From Archangium sp. (lineage in GTDB: Bacteria > Myxococcota > Myxococcia > Myxococcales > Myxococcaceae): DNA of 64,000 nucleotides. A program made the translations under genes and the position numbers. Under the pieces are notes generated by a model, which worked only from the letters and a program-made list of their open reading frames with translations, had not been told where the DNA came from and searched no databases. The stretch covers positions 1 to 64,000 of the forward strand of contig JALHMW010000004.1 in NCBI GenBank assembly GCA_022843845.1. The letters are read 5' to 3'. Of this stretch, positions 36,247-54,331 are shown piece by piece. The stretch's first letter is position 1; each line of letters begins with the position of its first letter.

Positions 36247-36309
36247 CGATCACTCCTGCCGTCGTGGAACGGCGTGCAATTTCACCCCGCGCTCCCTACA
36301 CGAAGGCCC

Positions 36310-37935
36310 ATGCGCCGTGGCTTCTTCCTGTTGTCGTCACTCCTCGCGTGTGCGCCTGCCGCGCCGGACCCGAACGTCATCGAGCAGTCGGGGCCCATCT
36401 CGATTCGGCGCGAGCTGCTGCGCGTTCCAGCGCCCCGCCCTCCTCCCAACCCGCTGACGCAGACGCCCACGCCTGACGAGCTCGATGGCGTGACGGTGGT
36501 TCGGTATCGCGTCGACACCGGCCAACGTGCACCTCGGGCCGCGCGCGCGATCGTCGTGCTGATGCCGGGCTTCATGGGCGGCGCTGGCTCGTTCGACTCC
36601 CTCGCGCGCGGCATCGTGCGGCGCTCGTCGGGCGAAGACGCGTTCGAGGCGTGGGCCATCGATCGACGCAGCAACGCGATGGAGGACCGCACCGGCATCG
36701 AAGCGGCGCTCGCGGCGCAGAACCCCGATGTGCTGACCAATTACTACTTCGCGGGCGAGCCGATCGCCGGCAAGACTTTCGAGGGCTTCAAGCGGCAACA
36801 GGACGTCGCGTTCGAGTCGGAGTGGGGCCTCGCGTCGACGATGAACGATCTGCGCGCGGTGATCTCCCTCGTGCCGGCCGATCAGCGGCGCGCGCACGTC
36901 ATTCTCGCGGGCCACTCGCTCGGCTCAGGCCTCGCAGGCATGTACGCCGCGTGGGACTTCGACGGCACGCCAGGCTTCTCGGAGCTCGCGGGGCTGGTGT
37001 TGATCGACGGCGTGACGGGCTCCGAAGGCGCACCGCTGGGCTTCACGAAGGAGGAATACGAGACGACGGGCCTGCCCAACTCGGGCTTCGGAGGCCGGCC
37101 GAGCCTCAAGCAGGTGCGTGAGGAGAACCGGTACTTCGCGTTCCCGTTGCTCGAGGCGAAGCTGTTCCCGATCGGCGTCGGCACCGCGCTGCGCTCGACG
37201 TTCCGGCCCGACGCGATCGAACGAGACCAACCGCGCCGCGACGCGCTCGAGACGCTCTTCCTCTCCAGCGACCTGCCCCGCATGACGAACCGCGCTGCGT
37301 TCGGGCTCGCCTTCGATGCCGCGACCTGTCCCGTCAGCATCGCAGCCGTCAACGCGGGCCAGACCGATGGGCCGCTCGTCGACACGACCTCTGCCTTTGG
37401 CGGCACCATCAAGAAGCCGGCGAGCAGCAACCAGACGTTCAAGTGGGTCGAGTTCGACCAGACCGAGCCGAAGGAGCTCACCTCGTTGACCGAGTTCGCG
37501 CTCGCCTGGGCCCGACCCGGCGCCGACTTCGGCGAGTGGTACTTTCCCTCACGGCTCTCGCTCGACACCGCGCTGGGCGCCAGCCTGACCCTCGGCCCGA
37601 CGGAGTGGCCCGCGACCGACTACGCGATTCGAACGTTCCACGGCCGGAGCATCGACGCGCCGGTGCTGGTCGAGGCGGCCGGCATCTTGAGCGGCGACGT
37701 CACGAAGTACGACCGCCTCAAGGCGTTGCTGCCACCCGTGGGAGAAGGCCGCCCTGGCGCCGGCTCCACGCGGAGCGAACAAGCTGGCTTCGAGGCGCTC
37801 TCGCACCCCTCGTTCACGCACATCGATCCGCTCGCAGGCACCGACGTTGCCGGCGGCGAGGTCGCGCGTTGGTTCGACGCGGTCGTCGGGTTTGCCCGGC
37901 GCTCCACCACGAGCCCGGGTGTCGTCGTGCCTTGA
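36310..37935 (+). CDS. Lipoprotein with alpha/beta-hydrolase fold
   Basis: From ATG 36310 the protein is 541 residues, with a short lipoprotein signal (LLSSLLAC). A domain with alpha/beta-hydrolase topology follows: an oxyanion strand VLMPGFMGGAGSF, the nucleophile elbow AGHSLGSGLAGMYA (Ser at about residue 203), and LVLIDG after it. The catalytic His is likely in SHPSFTHIDPL near the end. The substrate is unknown. Lipoproteins of this kind recur in myxobacteria, and a second, differently built one lies at 52.4 kb in this window. Confidence 0.85.
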   Translation: MRRGFFLLSSLLACAPAAPDPNVIEQSGPISIRRELLRVPAPRPPPNPLTQTPTPDELDGVTVVRYRVDTGQRAPRAARAIVVLMPGFMGGAGSFDSLARGIVRRSSGEDAFEAWAIDRRSNAMEDRTGIEAALAAQNPDVLTNYYFAGEPIAGKTFEGFKRQQDVAFESEWGLASTMNDLRAVISLVPADQRRAHVILAGHSLGSGLAGMYAAWDFDGTPGFSELAGLVLIDGVTGSEGAPLGFTKEEYETTGLPNSGFGGRPSLKQVREENRYFAFPLLEAKLFPIGVGTALRSTFRPDAIERDQPRRDALETLFLSSDLPRMTNRAAFGLAFDAATCPVSIAAVNAGQTDGPLVDTTSAFGGTIKKPASSNQTFKWVEFDQTEPKELTSLTEFALAWARPGADFGEWYFPSRLSLDTALGASLTLGPTEWPATDYAIRTFHGRSIDAPVLVEAAGILSGDVTKYDRLKALLPPVGEGRPGAGSTRSEQAGFEALSHPSFTHIDPLAGTDVAGGEVARWFDAVVGFARRSTTSPGVVVP

Positions 37936-38808: not shown

Positions 38809-38824
38809 TGGCGTGAGGCTTGCT
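38809..38824 (+). promoter_or_regulatory. Sigma-54-type promoter upstream of the giant secreted protein gene
   Basis: TGGCGT-GAGGC-TTGCT matches the -24/-12 consensus TGGCAC-N5-TTGCW, with the invariant GG and GC exactly 12 bp apart. The implied transcript start (about 38835) leaves only about 8 bases before the ATG at 38843 and no ribosome site, so translation would be nearly leaderless. The match could be chance in such GC-rich DNA. Confidence 0.4.
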
Positions 38825-38842
38825 GTAGCGTGCCGGGCGCGC

Positions 38843-41800
38843 ATGAGCCCGACACTCCTTCTTCCGTGGTTGGTCGTGCAGGCCGCGTCGCTGAGCCAGA
38901 GTTCGGTTCCAGCGACGGGTCGACACGAGACGATTCTCACCCTCGACGCCCCCGGGGCCGTGCATCTGTCAGCACGAAGCGGGAGCGGCACCTCGTGTGA
39001 AGTCATCGATCGCGTCCGCGGGCCGTTCGCGCGCGCCGGCACCGTGGGCCGCACCAACTGCGAGCTCGATCTGCTCCTCGACGCCGGCCAGTACAAGGTT
39101 CGGCTCGAGTCACCGGTGAAGGGCAAGGGCGCCGTCACCATCGCGGTGACGCCGTTCGCCGAGCGCAACACGTCTCCGGTGCAGCTCGCCAACGGCGCCG
39201 CGGTCGAGCTCACGCTCAAGCCGATGCAGCAGGCCTCGTTCTGGCTGCCGGTGCCGACGCGCGGCGTGCCGTACGTGCGCATCTCAGGACGAAACGCGGG
39301 TGACGTTCGGCTGTGGAGAAACGGTGAGTGGCTCGAGCCCATCACGCTGCGACGGACGACCGTCACCAACACGCCCGGCTACCCGATGCACGAGTGGTGG
39401 CTCGATCAGACGCTCGAGGCCGGCGACTACCAGCTCGTGGTGTACGGCCGCGACGCCGTCACGGTCACCGGCTCGACGCAAGACGACTCACTCACGCTCG
39501 AGCGCGGCTTTCGTCCCGGGCCCGCGGAGCGTTCGGTCTCGTTCACCCTGCCCGTCTCTGGCGTGTTGACGCTCGAGCTGCCGCGCACGCCGACGGCCGG
39601 GTACGTCGCGCTCGACGCCACGCCCGAGGCCCAGGTGCAGCTGCAGGTGGCCGAGCTCAGCTCCGGCGCCCCGCTCTCGTTCGGGGCGAGCTGCACGATC
39701 CCCAAAGCCGCCCTCGTTCCCGAGTGCGCGGTGCGCAGCTACGGCACACCCGATCGCCGGGTGGTGTTGCTCCGGGGGCCGAGGGGCACGAAGGGCACCA
39801 TCGAGTGGGCGACCGCAGTCAGCAACGATCTCGGCTGGCTGACCTCGTGGAACGGCGGCTACTACGGCGCGGCGAGCACCAACTTCAGCTTCTCGACGCG
39901 CATGTCGGGCCGCGTGATGGTCGCCACGCACGACCTCCCCATCGACTCCGACGCCGCGCCGCTCGGCTGCCAGCTCGAGATGTACGACTCTGGCGGCGTC
40001 GCACAGGGTGGCCTCGGCTTATCGCCACAACCCAAGCTCTGGGCCAGCGACTCGAACAGCAGCCGCGTGATCGCGCGCTCGATGACGACGCTCGGTGACG
40101 GCGAGGCCCTCGAGAAGGAGTTCAACTACGACGAAGGCGGCGCGCTGATCTGGTTCGAGCTGACGTCGGCGAACAAGTACCGGATTCGCACCGACGGCGG
40201 GCGCAAGAACCGCTGCGAGGTCTACCGCTTCAAGCCCGACGGCACCCTCGAGCGCCTCACGCAGACGAAGGCGACCGAGACCCCCGGCTGCGATCAGGTG
40301 CTCGCGCTGGGAAAGGGCCAGTACCAGGTGCAGCTGTTCGGCGGCGTCTCTGGCATCGAGAAGCTGGTCGTTCGCGAAGACTCGAAGCGCGAGCTGAAGA
40401 AGGCCTCCGTGCGGAGCACCTGCCAGCTGCCTCCAGCCGAGCTCAGCCCGGGCCGCTACCGGCTGATCCTCACGCGCACCGGCGCCATCACCGCCCGCGG
40501 CGTCACCCTCACCCAGCTGCCCGTCGACACCAGCGTGCCAGTGCACGTGAGCCTCGACCCGAAGCAGACCCTCGCGTTGCCGCTCGCGCGGGGCTCGACG
40601 TTCGTGGTGCGTTCTTCGGGCGGCGTGAAGTTCGGCTGTCAGCTTCCGGGAGCGCCGTCGGCCGTGAGCGTCTCTGATTGCTCCGTTCCGGCCACGTCGT
40701 CGGGCGACACGTTGACGCTCTCGAACCCTGGCGAACTCCCGGTGCAGGTGACCCTCTTCAGGCCGGTGCCGACCCCGAACGCAGGCGCCATCACCTCGTA
40801 CAGCCCGGCGCTCAAAGCCTTGCCGAAGCTCGCGCCTGAGCAGCCAGCCTGGTTCGACTTCGCTCGCGATCAGTCGAACGCGGCCATCTTCGAGGTCGAG
40901 ACGCCGGGCCTCTACAACGTGACGACGCTGGGCCTGCTGAGCACCTCGTGCCGGCTGCGAACGCCGGTCGTCGATCTCGTCGCGCAGAACGAAGGCGGAG
41001 GCCGGGGGCGCAACTGCCTCATCCAGACCTACCTGCAGAAGGGTCGCTATCTGTTGAGCGCGACGACGCGAGGCCAGAGCATGGGCCGTGGCGCGCTGTT
41101 CCTGCTGCGAAAGCCGGCGAAGCTCTTCGCCGGCGTGTCGGGCGAAGGTGAGTCGTTCTTCCGCGTCGACGCGAACGACCTCGTCCAGCAGAAGCTCGTC
41201 GTGACGAAGGCTGGCGACTACCAGCTGGGCACGACGGCGCAGGGCGCGAGCCTGCTGTGCCGCATCGACGACCCGGAGGGCTGGCCGGTCGAAGCCGTGC
41301 CGTCACCGTGCGTCGGTACGCGCGCTCTCGGGGCGGGCACCTACCAGTGGACGCAGATGCCCCTCACCGTGGAGTCGATGCGCCGCACGAAGCTCGAACG
41401 CGTGCGTGAGCCCATCGTGCTCAAGGGCAACCGGCCGCACACGGTGCAGGCCTTCACCTGGTACGACGCCGAGCTCGGCAGCGACGGGAAAGACGAGTTC
41501 ACCTTCACGCTCGAAGGTGAGTCGACGCTCGACGTGGTGCTGACGCAGGGCATGCAGGGGCGCGTGTTCCTCCTCGAGAAGAACCAGGCGCCCAAAGCGG
41601 TCGAGGTGATCGCGCCGCAGGTGTCTGCATACGGCTCGTCAGGGCAGGAAGAATCCCAGGAGTCCGGTGAGTCCGAGGGCCAGGGCGAGCAGGAGTACAG
41701 CGGCGAGGGTGACGGCGAGTACAGCCGCGATGGCGAATCGGAAGGCGACGGCGAATCGGACGGCAACAGCGACCCGGTCGTCGCAGCGGGACCGACGGGT

Positions 41801-44194
41801 CCTGCGATGCGCGCCGCGCCACCGCCGCCTGGAGGCGCGAAGATCACCCTGCCCGCAGGCAGCTACAAGCTCGTCACCGAGCACAGCAAGGGCGACGTCG
41901 GCATCACCTACAAGCTGCACTTTGGCAGCGCGGTGTTGCTGCCCGGCATGACGCGCACGCTCCCGGTGCCAACCACGATTCCGCTGACGGTGCCGCGCGA
42001 CGGCACGCTGCGCCTGCGCACCGAAGGAGAAGCCGACGTGCGATGCCGCCTCTTCGACGAGAAGCGCAAGCTGGTGCTGGAAGGCAGCGAGAACGGCTCC
42101 GACTGGAACTGCGCGCTCGCCGAGCCCATCAGCAAGGGCCGCTACACGCTGGTGCTCGAGAGTGAGACGCAGCTGGCAGGCGAGACGAAGCTCACCGTCA
42201 GCCTGCCGACCGTCGAGGACAAGGGTGTGTTCCCCGATGGCCAGAAGCTCACCCTTGGCACCTCGGTCGTTCAGTACACCGTGCCGCCCGGAGACGCCGT
42301 GCAGGAGCTCAGCGTCACCGCCGCTGGAAGAACCCCGTTCTCGTGCGCAGTCGTCGGGCCTGACGGGGTCGCGGCGAGGCGCTCGCGGGTCACCACCTGC
42401 TCGGTGCTGGTGATCGCGAAGCAGGAGCCGTGGACGTTGCGACTGTGGACGACCGATGGCTCCTCGGCGGTGGCCACGACGTTCAAGACGCGCGCGTTCA
42501 CCACGTCAGGCGCAGAGGTCTCGGCGGCGCAGGCGTCGTCGACGAGCGTCGCGAAGCCCGGGCGATACAAGACGTCGCCACAGGCCTTCTGTCTGCGCGG
42601 AAAGTCGACCGGCGTCTTCGAGTCGTGCGGCCCGGAGGTCTCACTCGAGGCAGGGCCGGTGGTGTTCGCCGGGTTCGGCGCGAAGTCGATTCCGGTGCCC
42701 CTCGACGAGGTGCGCTTCGCGGCGTCGAACACCGGCGCGACGTTCGACTTGAGCCGCACCGTGCACGTTCAGACCGTGACCGCTTCGCAGCCGTCTCTGT
42801 TTTTGCTCTCTGCGGTGTCCGGCTGGGCCGAGGCGGCGCCGCCGGTGTGCGCATTCGACGGAGCGGGCGCGTTGAGGGAACGACGAGACGCGTCGTGCTT
42901 CGCGGTCAGCCGCGTGGGCACCGAGGCGCTCGGGCGGGTGTGGGCGCCGACGGACGGCACCGTGCGGGCCTCGATCGTTCGTCGCGACGTCGCGATTCCG
43001 TCGAAGGCCGAGGCGCTCACGCCAGGCCGGCGCCGCGTCAGCTTCTCGAACGTCGGAGCGTTCGCCCTTCCCGCCTCGAGCCGCTCGCGCATCGAAGCCA
43101 CCCTCCCTCGCGACACGTGGGGCGTGCTGGTCGACCAGTCTGGCAACGCGCTCGAGCTCTGCGCGCCGACGAACGAGCTTCGCCGGTGTGTGGTGTCGGG
43201 CCAGGGCGGCACGCTGGTGCTAGTCGGCGGGAGTGATGGGCAGGCCGATCTCACGACGGTGCTCCTCGAAGCCGCGCCGATGTCGGTCGCCTTCACCGGG
43301 CTCTACGAAGACGCGCCGCGCGCGCCAGGGACGGTTCGCCTCACGGTGCCCGCGGCCGATGCCGACCGCACCGTCCTCGTCGAAGGCGCGCTGCGCTGCA
43401 CGCTGGTGCTCGCCTCGGGAGAGCGCTTCACGAGCTGCCGCACGAAGCTGCCCGCGAAGTCTGGCGCCGAGCTGATCATCGAGCACGATCTCACCGCCCT
43501 CCGCGCGATGGTGCACACGCAGGGTCGAGAGAAGTGGGCGCGCCTGGGCATCGAGCTCCCGGTCGTCGCGGGGCCGGCGCTGCAACCTGCGGTCGCGATT
43601 CCGCTCCAGCAGGGCCGGGTCGATCGCACCATCGTCGTCTCGCAGAGCAGCGTGGTGCGCGTCACCTCTGAGACGGGCGTCTGCGGCCTCTTCCGTGGAA
43701 ACGATCTGGTCTCGGTCGACGGCAACGACACCGGCTGCGAGCTGGTGCGCGTGCTGAACCCAGGCACGTACCGCCTGCTCGTGCGGCCGTTCGCGAACCG
43801 CGCGCTGGCAGGCGGGAGCTTGCGCTGGCTCGCTGAGCCGGTGACGGCGCTGACCGAAGGTGTCGGCGCAGAGACCTGGTTGGCTCCCGGTGAGGTGCGG
43901 CTCTTCACGTTCGACACGAAGGGGAAAGGCCGCGTCGGCTTCGGCATGCAGGCCAACCGCGAAGACCTCGAGTGCTCCGTCTACAACGACGGCTACCAGA
44001 CCGTCGGCGAGGGCTGTCACCAGTACCTGAACCTCGACAAGGGCCGCTTCCTGTTGACGGTGCGCAACCCCAATCGACCCGGGGCGAGCCCGATCGCCGT
44101 GAAGCCCGTGCTGCTGGGGTTGTCTGGCGAATCGAACGAGGTGCCGCCCGAGTACCTGCAGGACTTCTTCGGCCGCGTGGGGATGACGCCATGA
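38843..44194 (+). CDS. Giant secreted protein of repeated cysteine-pair beta domains, coupled to alpha-2-macroglobulin
   Basis: This protein of 1783 residues has an N-terminal signal (LLLPWLVVQAASLSQ). It appears to be a string of about 15-16 beta-sandwich-like modules, each with two cysteines 9-25 residues apart, followed by a strand such as LDAGQYKVRLES, LGKGQYQVQLFGG or LNPGTYRLLVRPF. Examples of pairs are 52/73, 458/483, 703/725, 806/823, 1068/1090, 1614/1632 and 1711/1725; a few modules have a single cysteine. An acidic Gly/Ser/Glu stretch (about residues 930-985) splits the chain. The repeat layout resembles PPC-type domains. No enzyme motif is seen. It overlaps the A2M gene by 4 bp, so a joint periplasmic or surface role is inferred. 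Confidence 0.85.
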   Translation: MSPTLLLPWLVVQAASLSQSSVPATGRHETILTLDAPGAVHLSARSGSGTSCEVIDRVRGPFARAGTVGRTNCELDLLLDAGQYKVRLESPVKGKGAVTIAVTPFAERNTSPVQLANGAAVELTLKPMQQASFWLPVPTRGVPYVRISGRNAGDVRLWRNGEWLEPITLRRTTVTNTPGYPMHEWWLDQTLEAGDYQLVVYGRDAVTVTGSTQDDSLTLERGFRPGPAERSVSFTLPVSGVLTLELPRTPTAGYVALDATPEAQVQLQVAELSSGAPLSFGASCTIPKAALVPECAVRSYGTPDRRVVLLRGPRGTKGTIEWATAVSNDLGWLTSWNGGYYGAASTNFSFSTRMSGRVMVATHDLPIDSDAAPLGCQLEMYDSGGVAQGGLGLSPQPKLWASDSNSSRVIARSMTTLGDGEALEKEFNYDEGGALIWFELTSANKYRIRTDGGRKNRCEVYRFKPDGTLERLTQTKATETPGCDQVLALGKGQYQVQLFGGVSGIEKLVVREDSKRELKKASVRSTCQLPPAELSPGRYRLILTRTGAITARGVTLTQLPVDTSVPVHVSLDPKQTLALPLARGSTFVVRSSGGVKFGCQLPGAPSAVSVSDCSVPATSSGDTLTLSNPGELPVQVTLFRPVPTPNAGAITSYSPALKALPKLAPEQPAWFDFARDQSNAAIFEVETPGLYNVTTLGLLSTSCRLRTPVVDLVAQNEGGGRGRNCLIQTYLQKGRYLLSATTRGQSMGRGALFLLRKPAKLFAGVSGEGESFFRVDANDLVQQKLVVTKAGDYQLGTTAQGASLLCRIDDPEGWPVEAVPSPCVGTRALGAGTYQWTQMPLTVESMRRTKLERVREPIVLKGNRPHTVQAFTWYDAELGSDGKDEFTFTLEGESTLDVVLTQGMQGRVFLLEKNQAPKAVEVIAPQVSAYGSSGQEESQESGESEGQGEQEYSGEGDGEYSRDGESEGDGESDGNSDPVVAAGPTGPAMRAAPPPPGGAKITLPAGSYKLVTEHSKGDVGITYKLHFGSAVLLPGMTRTLPVPTTIPLTVPRDGTLRLRTEGEADVRCRLFDEKRKLVLEGSENGSDWNCALAEPISKGRYTLVLESETQLAGETKLTVSLPTVEDKGVFPDGQKLTLGTSVVQYTVPPGDAVQELSVTAAGRTPFSCAVVGPDGVAARRSRVTTCSVLVIAKQEPWTLRLWTTDGSSAVATTFKTRAFTTSGAEVSAAQASSTSVAKPGRYKTSPQAFCLRGKSTGVFESCGPEVSLEAGPVVFAGFGAKSIPVPLDEVRFAASNTGATFDLSRTVHVQTVTASQPSLFLLSAVSGWAEAAPPVCAFDGAGALRERRDASCFAVSRVGTEALGRVWAPTDGTVRASIVRRDVAIPSKAEALTPGRRRVSFSNVGAFALPASSRSRIEATLPRDTWGVLVDQSGNALELCAPTNELRRCVVSGQGGTLVLVGGSDGQADLTTVLLEAAPMSVAFTGLYEDAPRAPGTVRLTVPAADADRTVLVEGALRCTLVLASGERFTSCRTKLPAKSGAELIIEHDLTALRAMVHTQGREKWARLGIELPVVAGPALQPAVAIPLQQGRVDRTIVVSQSSVVRVTSETGVCGLFRGNDLVSVDGNDTGCELVRVLNPGTYRLLVRPFANRALAGGSLRWLAEPVTALTEGVGAETWLAPGEVRLFTFDTKGKGRVGFGMQANREDLECSVYNDGYQTVGEGCHQYLNLDKGRFLLTVRNPNRPGASPIAVKPVLLGLSGESNEVPPEYLQDFFGRVGMTP

Positions 44195-47100
44195 TCCGAC
44201 CCCACGCCGCTCACCGGTTCTTCACCATGACTGCTCCACTTCGTTGCCTCGTCGTCGTCGCTGCCCTCGTCTCGACCCACGCGCTCGCGCAATACACCGC
44301 GGCCGACGTCGGCCAACGCCCTGCCACAGGTGGCACGAGCGTGTTGCCCGAGACGTTCCTGCGCGGGTTCGACCCGGTCACCGTGTACTTCAGCGGCGAT
44401 CAGGTCGGCGCGAAGGGCCCTGCCGATGACGGCCCGAAGTTCCTCTCGTTCGCGCCGCCGTGGCCTGGTGCGTACACGTGGGTCGACAAGCGCACCTTGC
44501 AGTTCCGGCCTGCGGAGCCCTGGCCCGCGCTGGCCCGCTTCGCCATCGACGCGCGCGGCACGAAGCAGGTGCTGACGACGATGATGTCGCCGCCCGCTGC
44601 GATGGCGCCCGCGGCCGGCAGTGAAGGCCTTCGTCCGTTCCGGGTCGTCACGCTCACCTTCCCCCAGGCGCTGCCGCCCGCGTCGCTGAAGAAGATGGTG
44701 TCGCTCGAGATTCGCGATCTGCCCGGCCTCGCCGACAGCCCTCGCAAGAAGGTGCAGTCGTTCTCACTCGCGCCGCTGCCTCGCGCGTCACAGCGAGACC
44801 CGGCGAGCTGGGCGCTCACGCTCGATGAAGACGTGCCCGAAGGGAAACAGCTGGTCGTCTCGGTCAGCCTCGCGCTGGGCACCGAGGGCACCACGCTGTG
44901 GACGGGCCGGCTGTCGACGCGCACGCCGTTCACCTTGCAGAGCGTTCAGTGCGGCAACGCGACGTTCCCGCTCGTTGGCGGCGCCTCGACGCCGAAGGAT
45001 CTCGCGCTCGGCTGCGGCAACCGTGGCGACATGCCGCAGCTGGTGTTCTCGGCCCAGGTGTCGGACCTGACGCTCACCAGCCTGCACAAGCTCGTGCACC
45101 TCGAGCCGTCGGTGCCCGACCTCCGGTTCACGCCGTACGGAGAGCGCGTGCAGCTGCAGGGCAAGTTCGTGCCTGACACGCTCTACAAGCTGACGCTTGG
45201 CTCGGCGCCAATTCGTGACGACGCGGGGCGCACGCTGCGCGACGTGAAGCCGGCCGATGTCTACTTCCACCTCGGCTGGAAGGCCTCGTTCCTGCGCTTC
45301 ACACAGTCGACGGCGATCGTCGAGGCGCGCGGCCCTCGCATGTTGCCGCTCCAGGGGTACGGAGAGCCGAAGGCCGACGTGCGCGTCTATCGCGTGGACC
45401 CACTTCACGCGGGCCTCTGGCCGTTCCCCTCGTCGCCCATCGTGGTGGACGAGCAGACCGCTCCGCCGTTCCCCGGCGAGGAGCCGACGACCCCGGACAT
45501 TCCCGGCGCCATCGACTCGCAGTCGCTGCAGAAGCACCTGCGGCTGCTCGGGAGCCCGCTCGTGTCGCGGCTCGTCGACCTGCCGCTCGCCGACAAGGCG
45601 AACACCACGACGTTCGGGCTCGATCTGAAGCCGCTCGTCGATCAACGCCCCGGCACCTACCTCGTTGGCCTGCGCCGCCTGACGGGCCGCTCGGAGCGCG
45701 CCTACGTGCGTGTGCAGATCACCAACCTCACCATGACGAGCGTCGAAGAGACCGACAAGGCGGTGCTGTACGTCCGCACGCTCGACACGGGTGACGCCGT
45801 TCGTGGCGCGACGGTGCGTCTGGAGGGCACGTACGCGACGTCACCCGGACTCGCAGTCGAAGAGTTCACCACCGATGGAGACGGCCGCGTCGTGCTGACG
45901 CCCCGGAACGCCTGGAGCTCGATCACCCGCGTCTCGGTGCGCTCGGGCGATGACGTGCTGGTGCTCGACCCGCGTGAGTCGTTGCCCTCGTTCGCGAACA
46001 ACCACTGGTCGAGCTACGGCAGCTGGCTCAACTGGCTGCTGAGCACCATTCCCCGGCCGCCCAACGACGCGACGCTCGGCTTCGTCTTCAGCGAGCGACC
46101 CATCTACAAGCCCAGCGAGCCGGTGTTCCTGAAGGCCTATGTCCGCCGCAAGGAGAACGGTGGGCTCCAGGTGCCCTCGGGGCTCTCCAACTACAAGCTG
46201 CGCGTTCGCGGCCCTGACGGCACCGAGTACCCGGTCACCAGCACGTCGACGGCGCTGGGGGCGTTCGCCGCGACGTTCAAGGAGGACGGCCTTCCGACCG
46301 GCGACTTCTCTGCCGAGCTGGTGCACGCGCCGATTCGTTCGGGCGAGACCGTCATCGCGACGCGCTCCTTCAAGATCGAGGCGTACCGGGTGCCCACCTT
46401 CGAGGTGCAGCTGACCGGCGCGCCGCGCGTGCGCAACGACGCCGCGTTCAAGGTGAAGGCCGTCGCGCGCTACTACGCCGGCGGCAACGTCGCGAACCAG
46501 CCCATCGCCTGGAGCGTGACGCAGCGCCCATACTCGTGGACGCCCAAAGGCCTGCCCGGCTTTCTCTTCGCGTCGTCGGCGCAGTTCGCCCGGCCGCAGA
46601 GCCAGCGCACGCCAGGCGTCACTGCGCAGCAGGGAGAGCTCGACGACAGCGGCGCAGGTGACATCACCACCAACCCGCAGCTCGATCTCGACGGCTCGGG
46701 GCGCGTGTACCGCTTCGAGGCCACCGTCACCGGGCCCGACGATCAGCCCGTCACCAGCGCGACCGAGGTGAAGGCGCTGCCGCCCTTCGTCCTCGGCCTC
46801 AAGGTGCCGCGCTATCTCGAGAAGGCCACCGAGCTCAAGGCCGAGCTGATCGCCGTCGGCATCGATGACAAGCCGCTGCAGGACCAGGAGCTCCGCGTTC
46901 GACTGCTGCGCCGCGTGTGGCACTCGACGCTACGCGAGACGAGCTTCGCGACGGGCAAGGCGAAGTACCAGACCGAGCAGGAGGATCTGCAGGTTGCGGA
47001 GAAGACGCTCAAGACGCTCACCACGCCGCTGGCGCAGGTGTTCCCCATCGTCGACTCAGGTGTCTACGTCGTCGAGCTGTTCGCGCGCGACAAGCTGGGC

Positions 47101-49935
47101 CGCGTGCAGACGCTCTCGGCCGATCTCTACGTCGGAGGCTCCACGCCGCAGTCCTGGCAGAAGTCTCGCGACGGCGTCTTCGAGGTGAAGCCCGACAAGA
47201 AGTCGTACCTGCCTGGAGACGTCGCGCACCTGATCGTGCAGAGCCCCTACGCCACGGCGCGCGCCCTCGCGATCATCGAAGACCCGACCGGTAACCGCTA
47301 CCTGTGGAAGGACGTGTCGGGCTCACGCGTGGTGATCGACGTGCCCATCACCGATCGTCACGCGCCGAACCTGCCGGTCCACGTGGTGTTGATGCGCGGC
47401 CGCATCGGCGAAGGGAAGACCGACGACTCCCGCTACAAGCCGGCGACGGCGGCCAGCACGATCGATCTCGAGATCGAGCCCGTGAAGAACCAGGTGACCG
47501 TGAACGTGACGCACCCCGAGGTCGCCAGGCCCGGTACGAAGCACGACTTCACCATCACGCTGTCTGACGAGGCGAAGCGGCCCGTCGGTGGCGAGGTGAC
47601 GCTCTGGCTCGTCGACGAGGCGGTGTTGTCGCTCGCGAAGGAAGCGACGCTCGACCCGCTGTCAGAGATGATCCGCCGCAACGCGCGCACCGTCAGCGTG
47701 CGTGACTCCCGCAACCTCGTCGTGGGCCGCATCACCGAACTGGAAGAGGACCCCGGCGGCGACGGTGGCGACGACGAGACCCAGGGCAGCAAGCGTCTGG
47801 TGCGCAAGGAGTTCAAGACGGTGCCGTACTACACGGCGACGTTGACGGTGCCGGCGAGCGGCAAGCTGGTGGTGCCGATTCAGCTCTCGGACGATCTGAC
47901 GAACTTCCGTGTGCGCGCAGTGGCCATCTCGGGCGCGACCCGCTTCGGCCTCAAGCAGTCGACCCTTCGGGTGCGTCTGCCGGTGCTGGTGACGCCGCAG
48001 CTCCCGCGGCTGGTTCGGGTCAGCGACTCGTTCTGGCCTGGCGCCGTGGCCCGCGTCGTCGAGGGTCCTGACGGTCCGGCGAGCGTCGACATCTCGATCA
48101 CTGGATCGATCGAAGGCAAGGGCAAGCTCGCCGAGCGCATCGAGCTCAAGTCGACGAAGGCGCAGTCGGTGCTGACGCCGGTGACGGTGAAGGCCGCTCC
48201 GATGGGCAAGGAGTCGGTCGTCACGGTGCGCGTCGACGTGACGCGGCTCTCGGACAAGGCGGGCGATGCGTTCGAGGTGAAGTTGCCGCTGCTGCCCGAT
48301 CGCAGCATCGAGCGCGCGGCCAGCCTGGTGACGCTCCAGACCGGCGCGAACACGCTCAAGCCGTTCCCCGAGCCCGCGCGGCCCGGCACGGCGAGCCAGA
48401 GCTACGTGTTCACGAACCAGCCCGGCGTGCTCGAGCTGGCCTCCAGCCTCGAGTACCTGTCGGCGTACCCGCACGGGTGCCTCGAACAACGCATGAGTCA
48501 GGTGTACCCGGACCTCGTGCTGGGCTCGCTGCTCAAGAAGCTCGAGCTCGAGACCCGCTTCACGCCGCAGGTGCAGGCCAACACGCGCAAGCTGCTCGAG
48601 GAGCTGGCGCAGCATCAGGACTCGTCGGGCTTCCTCGGCTACTGGCCCGGCTCCAGCGGCAACGTGCAGCTCACCGCGGCTGGCGTCGAGTTCATGACGA
48701 TGGCGAAGAAGGCCGGCGTGACGGTCGACGAGAAGGTGCGGACCCGCGCCATCGACGGCCTCAAGCGCGTGCTCCGAAAGGACTTCAACGGGCTGTGGAG
48801 CGAGTACCGCTTCAACCAACAGACCGCCGCGCTGCGGGCGCTCGCGCGGGTCGGCGACCTCGACGACAACTACGCCGTGGAGCTCTTCTACGGGCGAGCG
48901 GCGATGGACTCGTCGTCGCTGGCCGATCTCACCTCGGCGATGTCGGAGCGGCCCAACGTCTTCGCGTCGAACCTCGGCACGCTCAAGGGCGAGCTCTGGG
49001 ACGAGCTGGTGTTCAAGCTCGTCAAGGGCAACCAGGTGTTCGATCGCATGCGTCGAGATCGCACGGGCTGGTCAGGGCTGTACCTCGGCAGCTCGGCGAG
49101 CGCGGTGGCGGCGGTGTGGGAAGCGCTGCTCCGCGTCGACCCGTCGAACCAGAAGCACACGCTGATTCGTGACGCCCTGCTGGCGAAGGCGACGGCGAAC
49201 CAGGGCTTCGGCTCCACCTACGACAACCGCCGCGCGATCTCGGCGTTCGCGCTCTACCTCGAGAAGGGCACCACCAACGGGGGCAAGAGCACGGTGACGT
49301 TGAGCGGACTGCCCGAGGTCGTGCTCGACGACGTGAAGAAGGCGGGCCGCCGCATGCTCGACTCCGATCAGGTCCCCACCGTCAGCGTCTCGGGTGGTCC
49401 CGTCGGTGCGCGCATGCAGGTGAAGTACCTGCCGCTCCAGCCGGGCGATCAGGCCGAGGCGAAGAAGCAGGGCCTCATCGTCAGCCGCAGCCTCACCCGC
49501 TACCCCGCCGATGGCAGCGCGCCGGTGAACGTCGAAGACAAGGCGGGCCAGACGCTCAAGGTGCCGCTTGGCGAGGTGATCGAGCTGCACGCCCAGCTGA
49601 CGACCGACGAGGCGCGCCAGCACGTGGCCTTCGTGGTGCCGTTCGCCGCAGGGCTCGAGCCGATGAACCCCAACCTCGAGAACGCCGGGAGCGACGCGAA
49701 ACCCTCCCAGGCCGACTCACTGGCGCCGACGTACGTGCAGCGGCTCGATGGAGAGGTGCGGTACTTCTTCACCGAGCTCCCGCGCGGCACGCACACCTTC
49801 CACTTCCGCGTGCGCGCCTCGAGCGAAGGCAGCTTCGTGCACCCGCCGCCGTTCAGCGAGCTGATGTACCGCGAAGAGGTGCGTGGCCGTGGCGTCGGCG
49901 CGCGCATCGTCGTCACCGGCACTCGGCAGCAGTGA
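44191..49935 (+). CDS. Bacterial alpha-2-macroglobulin with thioester
   Basis: The protein has 1914 residues from ATG 44191 (or 1902 from ATG 44227), with a signal peptide ending ALA-QY and no lipobox. The A2M hallmarks are present: macroglobulin strands including FSERPIYKPSEPVFLKAYVRR, the segment LTLWLVDEAVLSL-like just before the bait region, and the thioester motif GCLEQ at Cys1430. The thioester-domain helices follow. Bacterial A2Ms trap periplasmic proteases, and the CLEQ type forms covalent bonds. It lies between a giant secreted protein and pbpC, the known A2M-PBP1C pairing in which PBP1C is thought to repair the wall after damage. It ends 7 bp before the pbpC ATG. Confidence 0.96.
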   Translation: MIRPHAAHRFFTMTAPLRCLVVVAALVSTHALAQYTAADVGQRPATGGTSVLPETFLRGFDPVTVYFSGDQVGAKGPADDGPKFLSFAPPWPGAYTWVDKRTLQFRPAEPWPALARFAIDARGTKQVLTTMMSPPAAMAPAAGSEGLRPFRVVTLTFPQALPPASLKKMVSLEIRDLPGLADSPRKKVQSFSLAPLPRASQRDPASWALTLDEDVPEGKQLVVSVSLALGTEGTTLWTGRLSTRTPFTLQSVQCGNATFPLVGGASTPKDLALGCGNRGDMPQLVFSAQVSDLTLTSLHKLVHLEPSVPDLRFTPYGERVQLQGKFVPDTLYKLTLGSAPIRDDAGRTLRDVKPADVYFHLGWKASFLRFTQSTAIVEARGPRMLPLQGYGEPKADVRVYRVDPLHAGLWPFPSSPIVVDEQTAPPFPGEEPTTPDIPGAIDSQSLQKHLRLLGSPLVSRLVDLPLADKANTTTFGLDLKPLVDQRPGTYLVGLRRLTGRSERAYVRVQITNLTMTSVEETDKAVLYVRTLDTGDAVRGATVRLEGTYATSPGLAVEEFTTDGDGRVVLTPRNAWSSITRVSVRSGDDVLVLDPRESLPSFANNHWSSYGSWLNWLLSTIPRPPNDATLGFVFSERPIYKPSEPVFLKAYVRRKENGGLQVPSGLSNYKLRVRGPDGTEYPVTSTSTALGAFAATFKEDGLPTGDFSAELVHAPIRSGETVIATRSFKIEAYRVPTFEVQLTGAPRVRNDAAFKVKAVARYYAGGNVANQPIAWSVTQRPYSWTPKGLPGFLFASSAQFARPQSQRTPGVTAQQGELDDSGAGDITTNPQLDLDGSGRVYRFEATVTGPDDQPVTSATEVKALPPFVLGLKVPRYLEKATELKAELIAVGIDDKPLQDQELRVRLLRRVWHSTLRETSFATGKAKYQTEQEDLQVAEKTLKTLTTPLAQVFPIVDSGVYVVELFARDKLGRVQTLSADLYVGGSTPQSWQKSRDGVFEVKPDKKSYLPGDVAHLIVQSPYATARALAIIEDPTGNRYLWKDVSGSRVVIDVPITDRHAPNLPVHVVLMRGRIGEGKTDDSRYKPATAASTIDLEIEPVKNQVTVNVTHPEVARPGTKHDFTITLSDEAKRPVGGEVTLWLVDEAVLSLAKEATLDPLSEMIRRNARTVSVRDSRNLVVGRITELEEDPGGDGGDDETQGSKRLVRKEFKTVPYYTATLTVPASGKLVVPIQLSDDLTNFRVRAVAISGATRFGLKQSTLRVRLPVLVTPQLPRLVRVSDSFWPGAVARVVEGPDGPASVDISITGSIEGKGKLAERIELKSTKAQSVLTPVTVKAAPMGKESVVTVRVDVTRLSDKAGDAFEVKLPLLPDRSIERAASLVTLQTGANTLKPFPEPARPGTASQSYVFTNQPGVLELASSLEYLSAYPHGCLEQRMSQVYPDLVLGSLLKKLELETRFTPQVQANTRKLLEELAQHQDSSGFLGYWPGSSGNVQLTAAGVEFMTMAKKAGVTVDEKVRTRAIDGLKRVLRKDFNGLWSEYRFNQQTAALRALARVGDLDDNYAVELFYGRAAMDSSSLADLTSAMSERPNVFASNLGTLKGELWDELVFKLVKGNQVFDRMRRDRTGWSGLYLGSSASAVAAVWEALLRVDPSNQKHTLIRDALLAKATANQGFGSTYDNRRAISAFALYLEKGTTNGGKSTVTLSGLPEVVLDDVKKAGRRMLDSDQVPTVSVSGGPVGARMQVKYLPLQPGDQAEAKKQGLIVSRSLTRYPADGSAPVNVEDKAGQTLKVPLGEVIELHAQLTTDEARQHVAFVVPFAAGLEPMNPNLENAGSDAKPSQADSLAPTYVQRLDGEVRYFFTELPRGTHTFHFRVRASSEGSFVHPPPFSELMYREEVRGRGVGARIVVTGTRQQ

Positions 49936-49942
49936 GGGCGTG

Positions 49943-52351
49943 ATGAAGAAGCCGACCCTGAGCTCCAGAGCGTGGCGTCGCGTCAGCGCGAGCTGGAGCA
50001 CGCCTCGTCGTCGCGTGGCGCTCGGGGTGCTGTGCCTCCTCACCATCGGGAGCGCCGTTCGTTTCTGGCGCTCTCTCGACGACTCGCTCGCGACCCGCAC
50101 GCCATCGCAGGTGTTGCTCGATCGCCGGGGCCGCTTCCTCGGTGAGGTCTTCGGCGCGAAGGAGTCGTACGGCTTCTGGCCGCTGCCGCCCTCGTTGCCG
50201 ATGAAGGTGGTGGTGACGACGCTGGAGACCGAAGACCGAGGTTTTTACGAGCACGGGGGCGTCGCGTGGCGCTCCGTGCTGCGCGCGGCCTGGCAGAACG
50301 TGTCGAACCGGCGCGTCATCTCGGGCGCGAGCACCATCGCGATGCAGGTCGCCCGCCTGCAGCACCCACGCGCACGCACCATGTCCGCGAAGCTCCATGA
50401 AGGGGCAGAAGGACTGCTCCTCGTTCGCAAGCACGGGCACGACGCGGTGCTGCGCCAGTACCTCACCATCGCGCCGTACGGGAACCGCACGCACGGCATC
50501 GTCCGCGCGGCGAACCTCTACTTCGACAAGCCCATCGACGATCTCTCGTGGCTCCAGGCGGCGTTCCTGGCGGCGCTCCCACAGCAGCCCAGCCGCATGT
50601 CTCCGTGGACGAAGGATGGCCACGCGCGCGCGATGACGAGGGCCCGCCGAATCCTCACGCAGCTCCACCAGCGCGGCGTCATTGGTGATGACGATCTCCA
50701 CGTCGCCCTCACGTCGAACCTCGCGCTCTCGAAGCACCCGGCGAGGCCGAGAGAGACGATGCACGCGGTGCTCGCCTGGAGCCGACGGCTGCCGAAGGGC
50801 CAGGTCATTCATCGCACGACCCTCGATCTCGACGTGCAGCGCGCGGCCTTCAAGGCGTTGACCGACAACCTCGCCTCGTTGAGGAGCGCGGGCGCTGGCA
50901 ACACCGCCGGCCTCGTCGTCGATCTGCCGACCGGTGAGGTGCTCGCGTACGTGGGGAGCGCCGACTACTTCGACGCCGACGCGCGCGGCAGCATCGACTA
51001 CCTCGCGACGCGGCGCTCACCGGGCTCGGCGCTCAAGCCCTTCATCTACGCGATGGCCCTCGAGAACGGCACACACACGCCCGCGACCGAGCTGCCCGAC
51101 ACGCCGGTCGAGTTCGCGACGGCCAACGGTGGCCTCTACGTGCCTGAGAACATCACCCACACCTTCCTCGGCCCCATGCTGCTGCGGCAGGCGCTCGGCA
51201 ACTCGCGCAACATCCCCGCGCTGCGCGTGCTGGCCGAGGTCGGCGTCGATCGTGTGGTGCAGCGGCTCGAGCGCGGCGGCGTGAAGCAGGTGAAGTACGA
51301 CCCCTCGGCCTACGGGCTCACGCTCGCGATGGGTTCGCTCCACGTGACCCCGCTCGAGCTCGCGCAGCTGTACACCGCGCTGGGCAACAAGGGCGTCACG
51401 GTGCCGCTCAAGCGCTTCGTCGGCGAGGTGCCGGCCGCGGGTGTTCGGCTCTTGAGTGAAGACGCGGCGATGCTGACCGCACACATGCTCGCCGACCCCG
51501 AAGCGCGGCGCCCGGCGTTCCCGCCTGGAGGCTCGCTCGACTACGACGTCGCGGTCGCGGTGAAGACGGGCACCAGCCAGGGCTACCGGGATGCCTGGGC
51601 CGCCGCGTTCTCCGATCGACTCCTGGTGGTGAGCTGGGTGGGAAACCACGATTGGCGCCGCATGAACCTGGTGTCAGGCGCGACGGCCGCAGCGCCCGCG
51701 GTGCACGCGGTGCTCGAGAAGGTCAGCCCCGACATCAGGCCGTGGGTGCCGCCGATGCTGGCGTTTCCGCTGCCCGGTGGATCGATCGCGGTCGACGTCT
51801 GCGGCCTCTCGGGACGACTGCCCGGGCCCAGCTGCCCCCACGTGAAGACCGAACACTTCGTGCGCGGCACCGAGCCGAGCCAGCCCTGCCCGTTTCACGC
51901 CGACGTGAGGCTCGACCGGCGCACTGGCCTGCTCGCGGGGCCTGCGTGCCCCGCAGCGGTGATCGAGACCCGGCCCATGCTCGCCCTGCCTGAGGTCTAC
52001 GCGTCGTGGGCGAGGCGGCAACGCCTGTCGATCGCCCCGACGGTGGAGTCGCCGCTGTGCCCGACGACCGACCCTTCGATTCGAACGGTGCGCATTCGCG
52101 AGCCGGCGCCCGCGTCTCGATATCTCTTCGACCCCGACACGCCTCGCGAGTTCTCGACGGTGAAGCTCTCGGCAGCCGTGCAGCCAGCGACGGAAGAAGT
52201 GGTGTGGATCGTCGACGGCACGCCGATCGCGCGCGTGGGTTACCCTCACGAGGCGCGGTGGCCGATCGCGCCGGGCGCGCACGTCATTCGCGCCGTGTTG
52301 GCAGGTGGGCGTGAGGCGAGCGCACCCGTGCGCATCACCGTCGACGACTGA
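49943..52351 (+). CDS. pbpC: Penicillin-binding protein 1C (glycosyltransferase/transpeptidase)
   Basis: The 802-residue protein has an N-terminal transmembrane anchor (about 27-42). A glycosyltransferase domain follows with ETEDRGFYEHGG (catalytic Glu near 96) and SGASTIAMQVARL. The transpeptidase domain has SALK (Ser near 362) and KTGTS near 540. A C-terminal BiPBP_C-like region is rich in Pro and Cys. All catalytic motifs are intact. ATG 49943 or GTG 49940 is the start; the latter overlaps nothing. E. coli PBP1C and A2M (YfhM) are linked in the same way, which suggests protection of peptidoglycan under attack. Confidence 0.95.
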   Translation: MKKPTLSSRAWRRVSASWSTPRRRVALGVLCLLTIGSAVRFWRSLDDSLATRTPSQVLLDRRGRFLGEVFGAKESYGFWPLPPSLPMKVVVTTLETEDRGFYEHGGVAWRSVLRAAWQNVSNRRVISGASTIAMQVARLQHPRARTMSAKLHEGAEGLLLVRKHGHDAVLRQYLTIAPYGNRTHGIVRAANLYFDKPIDDLSWLQAAFLAALPQQPSRMSPWTKDGHARAMTRARRILTQLHQRGVIGDDDLHVALTSNLALSKHPARPRETMHAVLAWSRRLPKGQVIHRTTLDLDVQRAAFKALTDNLASLRSAGAGNTAGLVVDLPTGEVLAYVGSADYFDADARGSIDYLATRRSPGSALKPFIYAMALENGTHTPATELPDTPVEFATANGGLYVPENITHTFLGPMLLRQALGNSRNIPALRVLAEVGVDRVVQRLERGGVKQVKYDPSAYGLTLAMGSLHVTPLELAQLYTALGNKGVTVPLKRFVGEVPAAGVRLLSEDAAMLTAHMLADPEARRPAFPPGGSLDYDVAVAVKTGTSQGYRDAWAAAFSDRLLVVSWVGNHDWRRMNLVSGATAAAPAVHAVLEKVSPDIRPWVPPMLAFPLPGGSIAVDVCGLSGRLPGPSCPHVKTEHFVRGTEPSQPCPFHADVRLDRRTGLLAGPACPAAVIETRPMLALPEVYASWARRQRLSIAPTVESPLCPTTDPSIRTVRIREPAPASRYLFDPDTPREFSTVKLSAAVQPATEEVVWIVDGTPIARVGYPHEARWPIAPGAHVIRAVLAGGREASAPVRITVDD

Positions 52352-52423
52352 CGTCTCGGTCGGTGACCAATCCGCCGGTCGAGGGCTGACGCCTCCGGGG
52401 TCGGGTTGAGCCACACTTGTGGC

Positions 52424-54331
52424 ATGCGACTCCTCGCGCTCGCCGTCCTGCCGCTGTGGGCCTGTCAGCCGCCCCTCGCGCCGATCCCCGAGACGGAGGG
52501 CTGCGACAACTTGAACGCGCAGCACTGCCTGCTGCCATGGCCGTCTGATCGGTTCCTCTCGAAGGACGCCGCGACCGTCACCGGCCTTCGGCTCAACTAC
52601 GAGCCCAACGCGCTCCCCGCCAACGCGCAGGGCATTCGAACCAGCCCTCGGGTCTTCTCGCGCCTCGACGGTCACTCACCGGCCGCGCAGCTCATGACGC
52701 GCTTCGTCCGCCCCGCCGATCTCACGGCGTCGCGCGCGCCGATCCAGAGCGACATCGGCCGATCGCTCGACGCCGACTCGCCGACCGTGCGGCTCGAGCT
52801 GTCGACGGGTCAACGGCTCGCCCACTGGGTCGAGAACGACGTTCGCGAGCCAACCCTGTTCTGGCTGCACCCCGCCGAGGTGCTCGAGCCGAACCGCGAC
52901 TACGGCGTGGCGATTCGAGGCCTCGTCGATGCTGACGGCGTCGCGCTCCCGGCGGAGCCCGGCTTCGCGGCGCTGCGAGACTCGGTGCCGACGCAGGTGA
53001 AGGACCTCGAGGCACGGCGGCCGGCCTATCGTCAGCTGCTCGACACGCTCCTGTCGGCCCACGTGCGCACCTCGCCGCTTCAGGCAGCCTGGCGCTTTCA
53101 CACGGCGAGCCTCGAGTCGATGCACGGCGACATGCTCGCCGTTCGAAACGATGGGCTGGAGCGGCTCACGGCGGCGGGGCTCGGCTGCACCATCACCAGC
53201 GTCGAGGACGACTACGGCAGCAGCACCCCGCTGACGACCTTCCGCCGGCTGCGCGGCACCTACACCGTCCCCTCCTTCATGGACTCGCCACGGCCTCCCG
53301 CGAAGCTGGTGCGCGGCCCCGATGGGAAGCCGACGTTCAAAGAGAACGTCGAGGTGCCGTTCACCATCATCGTGCCTCGCGCGGTCGGCGCTCCAGGGGG
53401 ACGCGCCCTGACGCCAGCGCGGGTCATCGTCTACGGACATGGGCTGATGGGTGACGGCGAGCGCACCATCTCGAGTGAGCCCTTCCGGGGAGTGGCTGAG
53501 TCGCTCGACTCGATCCTGGTGGCGACCGACTGGGCGGGCATGAGCGTGCCCGACTCGGGCGCCGTCGCTGACGCGTTGAACGACGCCTCGAAGTTCACGT
53601 TCGTCGCCGAGCGGCTCCAGCAGGGGCTCCTCAACCAGCTGGCGCTCGTGCGCTCGATGAAGGGGGCCTGCTCGAAGCTCCCCGAGCTGCGGGTGCAGGG
53701 CATCGATCTCGTCGACCCATCACGCGTGTACTTCGCGGGCGGCAGCCAGGGTGGCATCTTTGGCGCGACGGTGATGCGCCTGGGCCCGGACACCGATCGC
53801 GGCGTCGTGCTGGTGAACGGCGCGGCGTTTCCGTTCATGATCGAGCGCAGCATCGACTTCGCGCCCTTTCTCCCCGTCTTCGAGCAGGCCTACCCAGACC
53901 GCACCGATCGCGCGCTCGCCCTCGCGACGCTCCAGAGCCCGTGGGACGCGACCGACCCAGCGACGTGGCTGCGCGCGCCGAGCGACTGGCCGTGGGCGCG
54001 AAGGCTCTTGAGCATCAGCGTGAAGAACGACGCGCAGGTCCCGAACGTGGCGACCGATCTCGTGACACGCACGGCCAGGCTCCCGCTGTTGCCTGGCACG
54101 GCGCGGGCCCCATGGGGGAGCTCACCCGCGGCAGAAAACCCCGCCGACGCGGCGCTGGTGATCGACATGGGCGATCGCCCCGTGCCTGAAGGCATCATCG
54201 CGCCAACCATGAATGACAAGGGCCACTCTCGGGTGCTGGGCGCGCCGAGTGCGCAGTTCGCCATCGACCGCTTCTTGCGGCCCGACGGCGTGATCGAGGT
54301 GAAGTGCGACGGCGTCTGCGACCCGACGTGA
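52424..54331 (+). CDS. Lipoprotein with alpha/beta-hydrolase fold
   Basis: The product has 635 residues from ATG 52424, with a lipobox LPLWAC. A beta-propeller-like or linker N-terminal half includes a cysteine-rich start (CDNLNAQHCLLPWP). The C-terminal half has an alpha/beta-hydrolase core: VIVYGHGLMGDGERTI (oxyanion region), the nucleophile elbow YFAGGSQGGIFGATVM (GxSxG, Ser near 440) and a late NDKGHSRVLG carrying the likely catalytic His. The substrate is unknown. It ends 7 bp before a convergent gene. It is not closely similar to the hydrolase at 36 kb. Confidence 0.85.
   Translation: MRLLALAVLPLWACQPPLAPIPETEGCDNLNAQHCLLPWPSDRFLSKDAATVTGLRLNYEPNALPANAQGIRTSPRVFSRLDGHSPAAQLMTRFVRPADLTASRAPIQSDIGRSLDADSPTVRLELSTGQRLAHWVENDVREPTLFWLHPAEVLEPNRDYGVAIRGLVDADGVALPAEPGFAALRDSVPTQVKDLEARRPAYRQLLDTLLSAHVRTSPLQAAWRFHTASLESMHGDMLAVRNDGLERLTAAGLGCTITSVEDDYGSSTPLTTFRRLRGTYTVPSFMDSPRPPAKLVRGPDGKPTFKENVEVPFTIIVPRAVGAPGGRALTPARVIVYGHGLMGDGERTISSEPFRGVAESLDSILVATDWAGMSVPDSGAVADALNDASKFTFVAERLQQGLLNQLALVRSMKGACSKLPELRVQGIDLVDPSRVYFAGGSQGGIFGATVMRLGPDTDRGVVLVNGAAFPFMIERSIDFAPFLPVFEQAYPDRTDRALALATLQSPWDATDPATWLRAPSDWPWARRLLSISVKNDAQVPNVATDLVTRTARLPLLPGTARAPWGSSPAAENPADAALVIDMGDRPVPEGIIAPTMNDKGHSRVLGAPSAQFAIDRFLRPDGVIEVKCDGVCDPT

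Follow-up and report, generated by a model that had tools for sequence, protein, structure and literature searches.

A giant protein, an alpha-2-macroglobulin (A2M) and penicillin-binding protein 1C (PBP1C) are encoded one after the other in many Myxococcota, and together they almost certainly constitute a real, conserved and distinct three-gene module. Gene content and gene order across the phylum support the giant as the constant partner of the module-type A2M and its PBP1C.

The window, a stretch of 64,000 nucleotides from an Archangium genome (referred to here as G000, 85.8% complete; contig C4), carries all three genes on the forward strand at the coordinates given in the first-pass annotation. 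The giant gene (38843..44194, +) encodes 1783 residues from the ATG at 38843 and begins with an apparent Sec-type signal peptide (approximately residues 1-19), so that the length and the signal described earlier are borne out from this start; the open frame spans 38813-44194 (+) and offers an alternative start at the GTG at 38813 (+). Its stop codon overlaps the start of the A2M gene in the tetranucleotide ATGA (44191..44194, +), as had been noted. The A2M gene (44191..49935, +) encodes 1914 residues with an ordinary signal peptide and without a lipoprotein signal. A GGGGA located 7 bases 5' of its ATG at 44191 was recognized by eye as a possible ribosome site, and this start is only tentative because an internal ATG at 44227 in the same frame likewise yields a signal peptide. 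The thioester, previously called intact, is indeed so: the CLEQ motif (48478..48489, +; residues 1430-1433) stands in the context PHGCLEQ. The protein exceeds the Pfam cut-offs for bMG10 (88.3 bits), A2M_BRD (62.3 bits) and A2M (39.3 bits). The PBP1C gene (49943..52351, +) starts 7 bp past the A2M stop, again in agreement with the earlier reading, and its product is the sole match above cut-off to TIGR02073 in its genome (499.9 bits against a cut-off of 494.2, covering positions 7-727 of 728). Promoter and terminator scans gave no signal above chance. Further bMG10 matches lie elsewhere in the genome, at G000:C1:205985, C13:104112 and C7:79378, the last of them below cut-off, and PBP1C is absent within the stretches fetched around these three loci.

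A phylum-wide draw of 195 Myxococcota genomes recovered the giant in 48, a figure that includes the genome of the window and the weak match in G170. Of the 60 genomes nearest to the window's, itself counted, 21 carry the giant; the same 21 hold a high-scoring match to the window A2M, and 15 more hold weaker matches only. In a second draw of 189 genomes, matches to the A2M profile occurred in 95 and were sharply bimodal, with a best match of at least 1147 bits in 44 genomes and of at most 423 bits in the rest. One of the latter, G188 (219 bits), sits at a giant locus and was for this reason counted with the module, bringing the module-type total to 45, and all 45 of these genomes also hold the giant. 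Of the remaining three giant genomes, G003 and G056 have a module A2M in the nearest-genome search and G170 does not, its only A2M match (84 bits) being located on another contig. Within the same family, 16 genomes of one genus (g26), among those listed, are without the giant, and the same 16 carry a weaker match of the ordinary A2M type.

In order to analyze gene order, we fetched 51 stretches that surround a match to the giant or to the module A2M, and scored the 50 with a giant match. Of the 42 loci with at least 500 bp remaining downstream, 41 have an A2M next after the giant and on its strand, the sole exception being the weak and partial giant match of G170, and PBP1C follows the A2M in 35 of the 35 loci with at least 500 bp of contig left. 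The first-pass annotation had asked whether giant homologues always sit beside an A2M and pbpC, or mostly occur without them; these counts give near-constant adjacency. The three-gene arrangement lies far beyond chance. Over 54 loci, the giant was recovered in 52, the A2M in 45 and PBP1C in 39, and the window's neighbors outside the module in 0-8, with the gene directly 3' of PBP1C found in none; the neighbor counts are lower bounds, because the stretches reach only a few kb upstream and include contigs that end early. The flanking genes at 36274-37935 and 52406-54331, both with weak alpha/beta-hydrolase-type Pfam matches below cut-off, were recovered in 2 and 0 of the 54 loci, respectively. 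One locus (L137, in G188) holds giant, A2M and PBP1C as separate pieces only and appears to be a decaying or badly assembled copy; another (L123, in G071) has about 2.2 kb extra between A2M and PBP1C, the biggest such gap seen.

The junction between giant and A2M is preserved down to the codon in most loci. The giant stop overlaps an open, in-frame NTG start in 36 of 44 loci (ATG in 19, GTG in 16, TTG in 1), which corresponds to an NTGA overlap in 36 of the 41 Myxococcota loci. Three more Myxococcota loci (L130, L131, L140) show an in-frame TGATG by eye, L049 and L134 have neither, and the three Rhizobium loci have a short gap and no overlap. While the gaps between the giant and A2M profile matches vary, the start codons show the overlap to be widely kept. 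Giants ending in proline (n=26) use CCA (12) or CCG (14) and never CCC or CCT, which make up 136 of the 324 proline codons in the window's three genes; overlap and codon counts alike come from related loci and are hence non-independent. The proposal made for the window, that giant and A2M are translationally coupled through the overlap, is thus supported across the Myxococcota.

The same observations bear on the idea of the giant as a surface or matrix protein with no tie to A2M and pbpC other than a shared operon. Long arrays of beta-sandwich domains are frequent among adhesins and matrix proteins, and the predicted architecture of the giant would fit in with these. However, the three genes constantly occur together in a single order, in Rhizobium as well as in several families of Myxococcota, and the start overlap is kept in Myxococcota where the flanks are not, which renders such an incidental association very improbable.

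The module A2Ms and PBP1Cs form clades of their own, separate from the giant-less pairs. Trees were built of 47 A2Ms and 38 PBP1Cs, with rows hand-picked from these loci, the window's own genome and plasmid records. Module rows from Myxococcota and Rhizobium are split from all others with a support of 100 in the A2M tree, which was made by a quick method and has long branches outside the module, and of 100/100 in the PBP1C tree. Other A2Ms of the phylum share approximately 25-31% identity with the window A2M, and the first 475 positions of the module A2M profile are unmatched in 19 of 21 other A2Ms. Twelve ordinary A2M loci were opened; PBP1C lies nearby in 9 and a giant match was found in none of the 12. 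One genome, G015, holds both kinds of A2M. Like the Type I bacterial A2Ms (E. coli YfhM/ECAM with PbpC, and the ordinary myxococcal pairs), the window A2M has the C-x-E-Q thioester, Pfam bait-region and bMG10 domains and an adjacent pbpC. It departs from them in the giant gene upstream, in its clade and that of its PBP1C, and in the missing lipoprotein signal.

The giant itself is marked by thirty conserved cysteines (38996..44017, +; residues 52 to 1725), arranged as 14 pairs with a spacing of 9-25 residues plus residues 376 and 527. In an alignment of 18 giants, 28 of the 30 are invariant, and the other two, 1614 and 1632, are present in 17 of 18, both missing in the same single protein; the designation as a cysteine-pair protein consequently fits the window giant. 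Among 44 loci, the giant has a cysteine at every covered position in 34, lacks one or two in five and has none in another five (a G193 piece, G076 and three Rhizobium giants). Extra giant pieces keep 1 of 23 (G164), 0 of 12 (G188) and 1 of 15 (a second G193 piece), and seven further pieces of the stapled type keep every covered cysteine or are one short (28 of 29 in G010, 13 of 14 in G056). Since the cysteines are retained almost completely or lost almost completely, giants would exist in a stapled and a staple-free form.

An acidic, Gly/Ser/Glu-rich low-complexity stretch (41627..41797, +; approximately residues 929-985) was delimited from the alignment and from low pLDDT, which is about 26 across residues 909-979 of the model. 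It varies in length among relatives and is missing in L052 in the alignment of 18, for which reason we rejected it as a second bait region. A TrAA12 match (21 bits, cut-off 30.9; residues 898-977) overlaps this stretch and was disbelieved. The only candidate for a second giant in the window's genome (E 0.36) starts in it as well and was taken as chance.

No Pfam or NCBIfam family scores above cut-off in the giant, and a sequence search of the PDB returned two chance-level matches, the better one at E 0.45. AlphaFold models, calculated from 8 sequences, are all-beta save for one short end helix; their mean pLDDT is 66.8 and 61.5 and their pTM 0.46 and 0.34, that is, low to medium confidence. 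From the sequence and these models, we infer that the giant is an exported array of about 18 tandem beta-sandwich-like domains, the borders of which were set approximately. Internal homology reaches 80% in hhalign for 8 of 153 domain pairs, compared to 0 of 306 with shuffled columns, and stays below this value for the other 145; most invariant residues are found in domains 1, 8, 9, 11 and 18. The best 50 Foldseek matches of either half are exclusively long beta arrays with TM-scores below 0.2 by query length and of at most 0.34 by target length, and we gave the giant no fold name from these matches. There is some likeness to the PPC domain (PF04151): the repeats show G-x-Y-x-L strands by eye, and sub-threshold matches occur in one rhizobial giant (21.4 bits) and in 1 of the 18 myxococcal giants (E 0.014). 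However, the best giant score of 21.4 bits lies below the curated cut-off of 25.9, so that the giant is not a PF04151 member by the gathering cut-off, and it differs from PPC-type arrays in stringing about 18 domains together in a single chain, with cysteine staples in most giants.

Some of the structural matches could be taken to mean that the giant is a very diverged, thioester-less macroglobulin-like chain, forming a second trap or contributing one half of a mixed cage of which the A2M is the other. With the N-terminal half as query, Foldseek ranks E. coli A2M first (4ziq, E 1.9e-8), followed by further A2M and complement chains. For the C-terminal half, complement chains set in at rank 15 and A2M takes ranks 36-37, and one of the 18 giants has a bMG6 match (E 0.0017). 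However, the A2M- and C5-type matches of the N-terminal half have TM-scores of 0.06-0.09 at an rmsd of 28 or more, the best matches of the C-terminal half are cubilin and neuropilin, and the models contain no helical thioester domain. A profile comparison of giant and A2M gave a probability of 0.2%, and no macroglobulin, bait-region or thioester domain was detected by sequence that would place the giant in the alpha-2-macroglobulin family. We therefore consider this kinship improbable.

The thioester of the module A2Ms is widely but not universally kept. The C-x-E-Q motif is present in 43 of 48 readable proteins (35 of 40 in the first set and 8 of 8 added) and lost in five, namely the three from Rhizobium (L160-L162, reading PYGSTEQ), G076 (L135, PHGNAEA) and G025 (L050, SLEQ); these loci keep giant and PBP1C. 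We rejected the notion that thioester loss is always tied to a cysteine-free giant on account of two genomes: in G193, CTEQ accompanies a giant almost devoid of cysteines, and in G025, SLEQ occurs beside a giant of the stapled form.

Searches for the giant and the A2M covered Myxococcota genomes plus plasmid and phage collections. In a tblastn search of 72,556 plasmid records, the window giant gave 7 matches, all Rhizobium, covering 46-51% of the protein at approximately 28% identity. A rhizobial giant used as query returned the same 7 plasmids at full length, and the rhizobial A2M returned the same 7 and 4 distant records. The three plasmids opened out of these seven all carry giant, A2M and PBP1C in that order. 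As the Rhizobium rows group with the Myxococcota genome G076 in both trees, the data suggest that the whole module passed between Myxococcota and Rhizobium by transfer.

The giants of all three opened plasmids have an LprI domain (PF07007) as an N-terminal fusion behind the signal peptide (L160, L161 and L162, at approximately 11464-12024; 33.2, 41.1 and 43.7 bits, cut-off 22). In NZ_CP035000.1 (L160), the annotated TTG start of the giant excludes this domain. Four phage records match the rhizobial giant, solely via the N-terminal signal and LprI part. The domain allies these giants with the LprI-domain proteins and suggests that the array can carry, or may itself be, a part acting on wall hydrolases.

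This observation is central to a second reading, in which the giant would be an inhibitor or decoy for peptidoglycan hydrolases, a third arm of the module with no need to bind the A2M. LprI-domain proteins have been linked to wall hydrolases: an LprI-domain lipoprotein of M. tuberculosis confers lysozyme resistance, and Salmonella ScwA controls the levels of MltD, as far as the available text of the report describes them (PMC7933661). MagD, moreover, is described as guarding against some wall-targeting T6SS effectors in the part of the source available (PMC12663445). Against it, deletion of scwA left lysozyme sensitivity unchanged, and the authors of that study, in the same available text, doubt that LprI itself inhibits lysozyme (PMC7933661). 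Furthermore, the window giant, the remaining 17 of the alignment and 5 Myxococcota giants at a greater distance gave no LprI match, and a search of the window's genome, which is incomplete at roughly 86%, gave none at E 0.01 either. We regard an inhibitor role as doubtful, although it ranks next after our best guess, a scaffold for the A2M.

The scaffold reading starts from the anchoring of the A2M. We scanned A2Ms with a lipoprotein-signal pattern of the PROSITE type at any plausible start, and also with a stricter form. The pattern occurs in 2 of 41 Myxococcota module A2Ms (L122 and L125), 0 of 3 rhizobial and 11 of 12 ordinary myxococcal A2Ms, and the stricter form in 0 of 41, 0 of 3 and 6 of 12, respectively; the ordinary A2Ms were scanned over a longer frame, with some bias toward them, but their matches sit at visible signal peptides. 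A lipobox has been reported for the E. coli A2M (PMC3328433, as far as its available text goes), in contrast to the window A2M. It is mainly because the module A2Ms are without this signal that we propose the giant as an anchor substitute, which would replace the lipid anchor of the A2M. Counting against the giant holding the A2M in place, no lipid or membrane anchor was seen in the giant itself, where the lipoprotein pattern fits a single giant out of 35, and does so at an improbable start.

A precedent for A2M partners is the Mag complex of Pseudomonas aeruginosa (MagABCDEF), in which operon partners bind and stabilize the A2M, and the stability of MagD depends on MagB (PMC5764988, in the portion available). 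The complex and the module differ in that MagD is described there as lacking the thioester and belonging to a six-gene operon, as opposed to the CLEQ of the window A2M, and in that PBP1C is named in the available text as a neighbor of Type I A2Ms rather than of MagD (PMC5764988). Since no Pfam family scores over cut-off in the giant, it matches no known Mag partner family.

Our preferred reading, to which we give about an even chance, is that the giant is a periplasmic scaffold for the unanchored A2M beside PBP1C. It would be exported by Sec into an oxidizing compartment and fold there into some 18 beta-sandwich domains lined up in a long array, which disulfides would staple in most lineages. 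Standing in for the absent lipid anchor, it would bind the A2M and keep it periplasmic, in the vicinity of PBP1C and the wall, in a role comparable to that of MagB in stabilizing MagD. Upon a breach of the envelope, the A2M would trap incoming proteases and PBP1C would refill the wall, with the giant holding both together; on rhizobial giants, the LprI domain could add a part acting on wall hydrolases. It speaks against the scaffold that co-inheritance of the three genes would look identical if the giant had a separate activity of its own. Tentatively, one may go further and envisage a three-part envelope immune complex, possible though less probable than the scaffold alone, made up of a disulfide-stapled rod, an unanchored thioester trap, a dedicated wall synthase and an optional wall-hydrolase-binding head, which would have arisen as one unit in Myxococcota and passed undivided to rhizobial plasmids.

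Judged by its genes, the module is a distinct lineage of the known A2M-PBP1C envelope-defense pair, with a third constant component. Among the literature matches listed, no title or abstract concerns a third partner of this pair, a mention in the 2004 survey of bacterial A2Ms being possible, and the combination of 'macroglobulin' and 'LprI' retrieved no paper. According to the available text of PMC7554673, no part played by PBP1C in wall synthesis is known under standard laboratory conditions, and the module bears on the still open question of why A2M travels with PBP1C. The known pair consists of a protease trap and a wall-repair enzyme, and the job of the giant is probably tied to trap and wall. 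The variants of the module, cysteine-stapled or cysteine-free, with or without thioester, and LprI-fused in Rhizobium, would provide a handle on the link between protease trapping and wall repair. The giant would add an unclassified family of huge proteins, present in myxobacteria as well as in plant symbionts, to what bacteria have as a counterpart of complement-type immunity.
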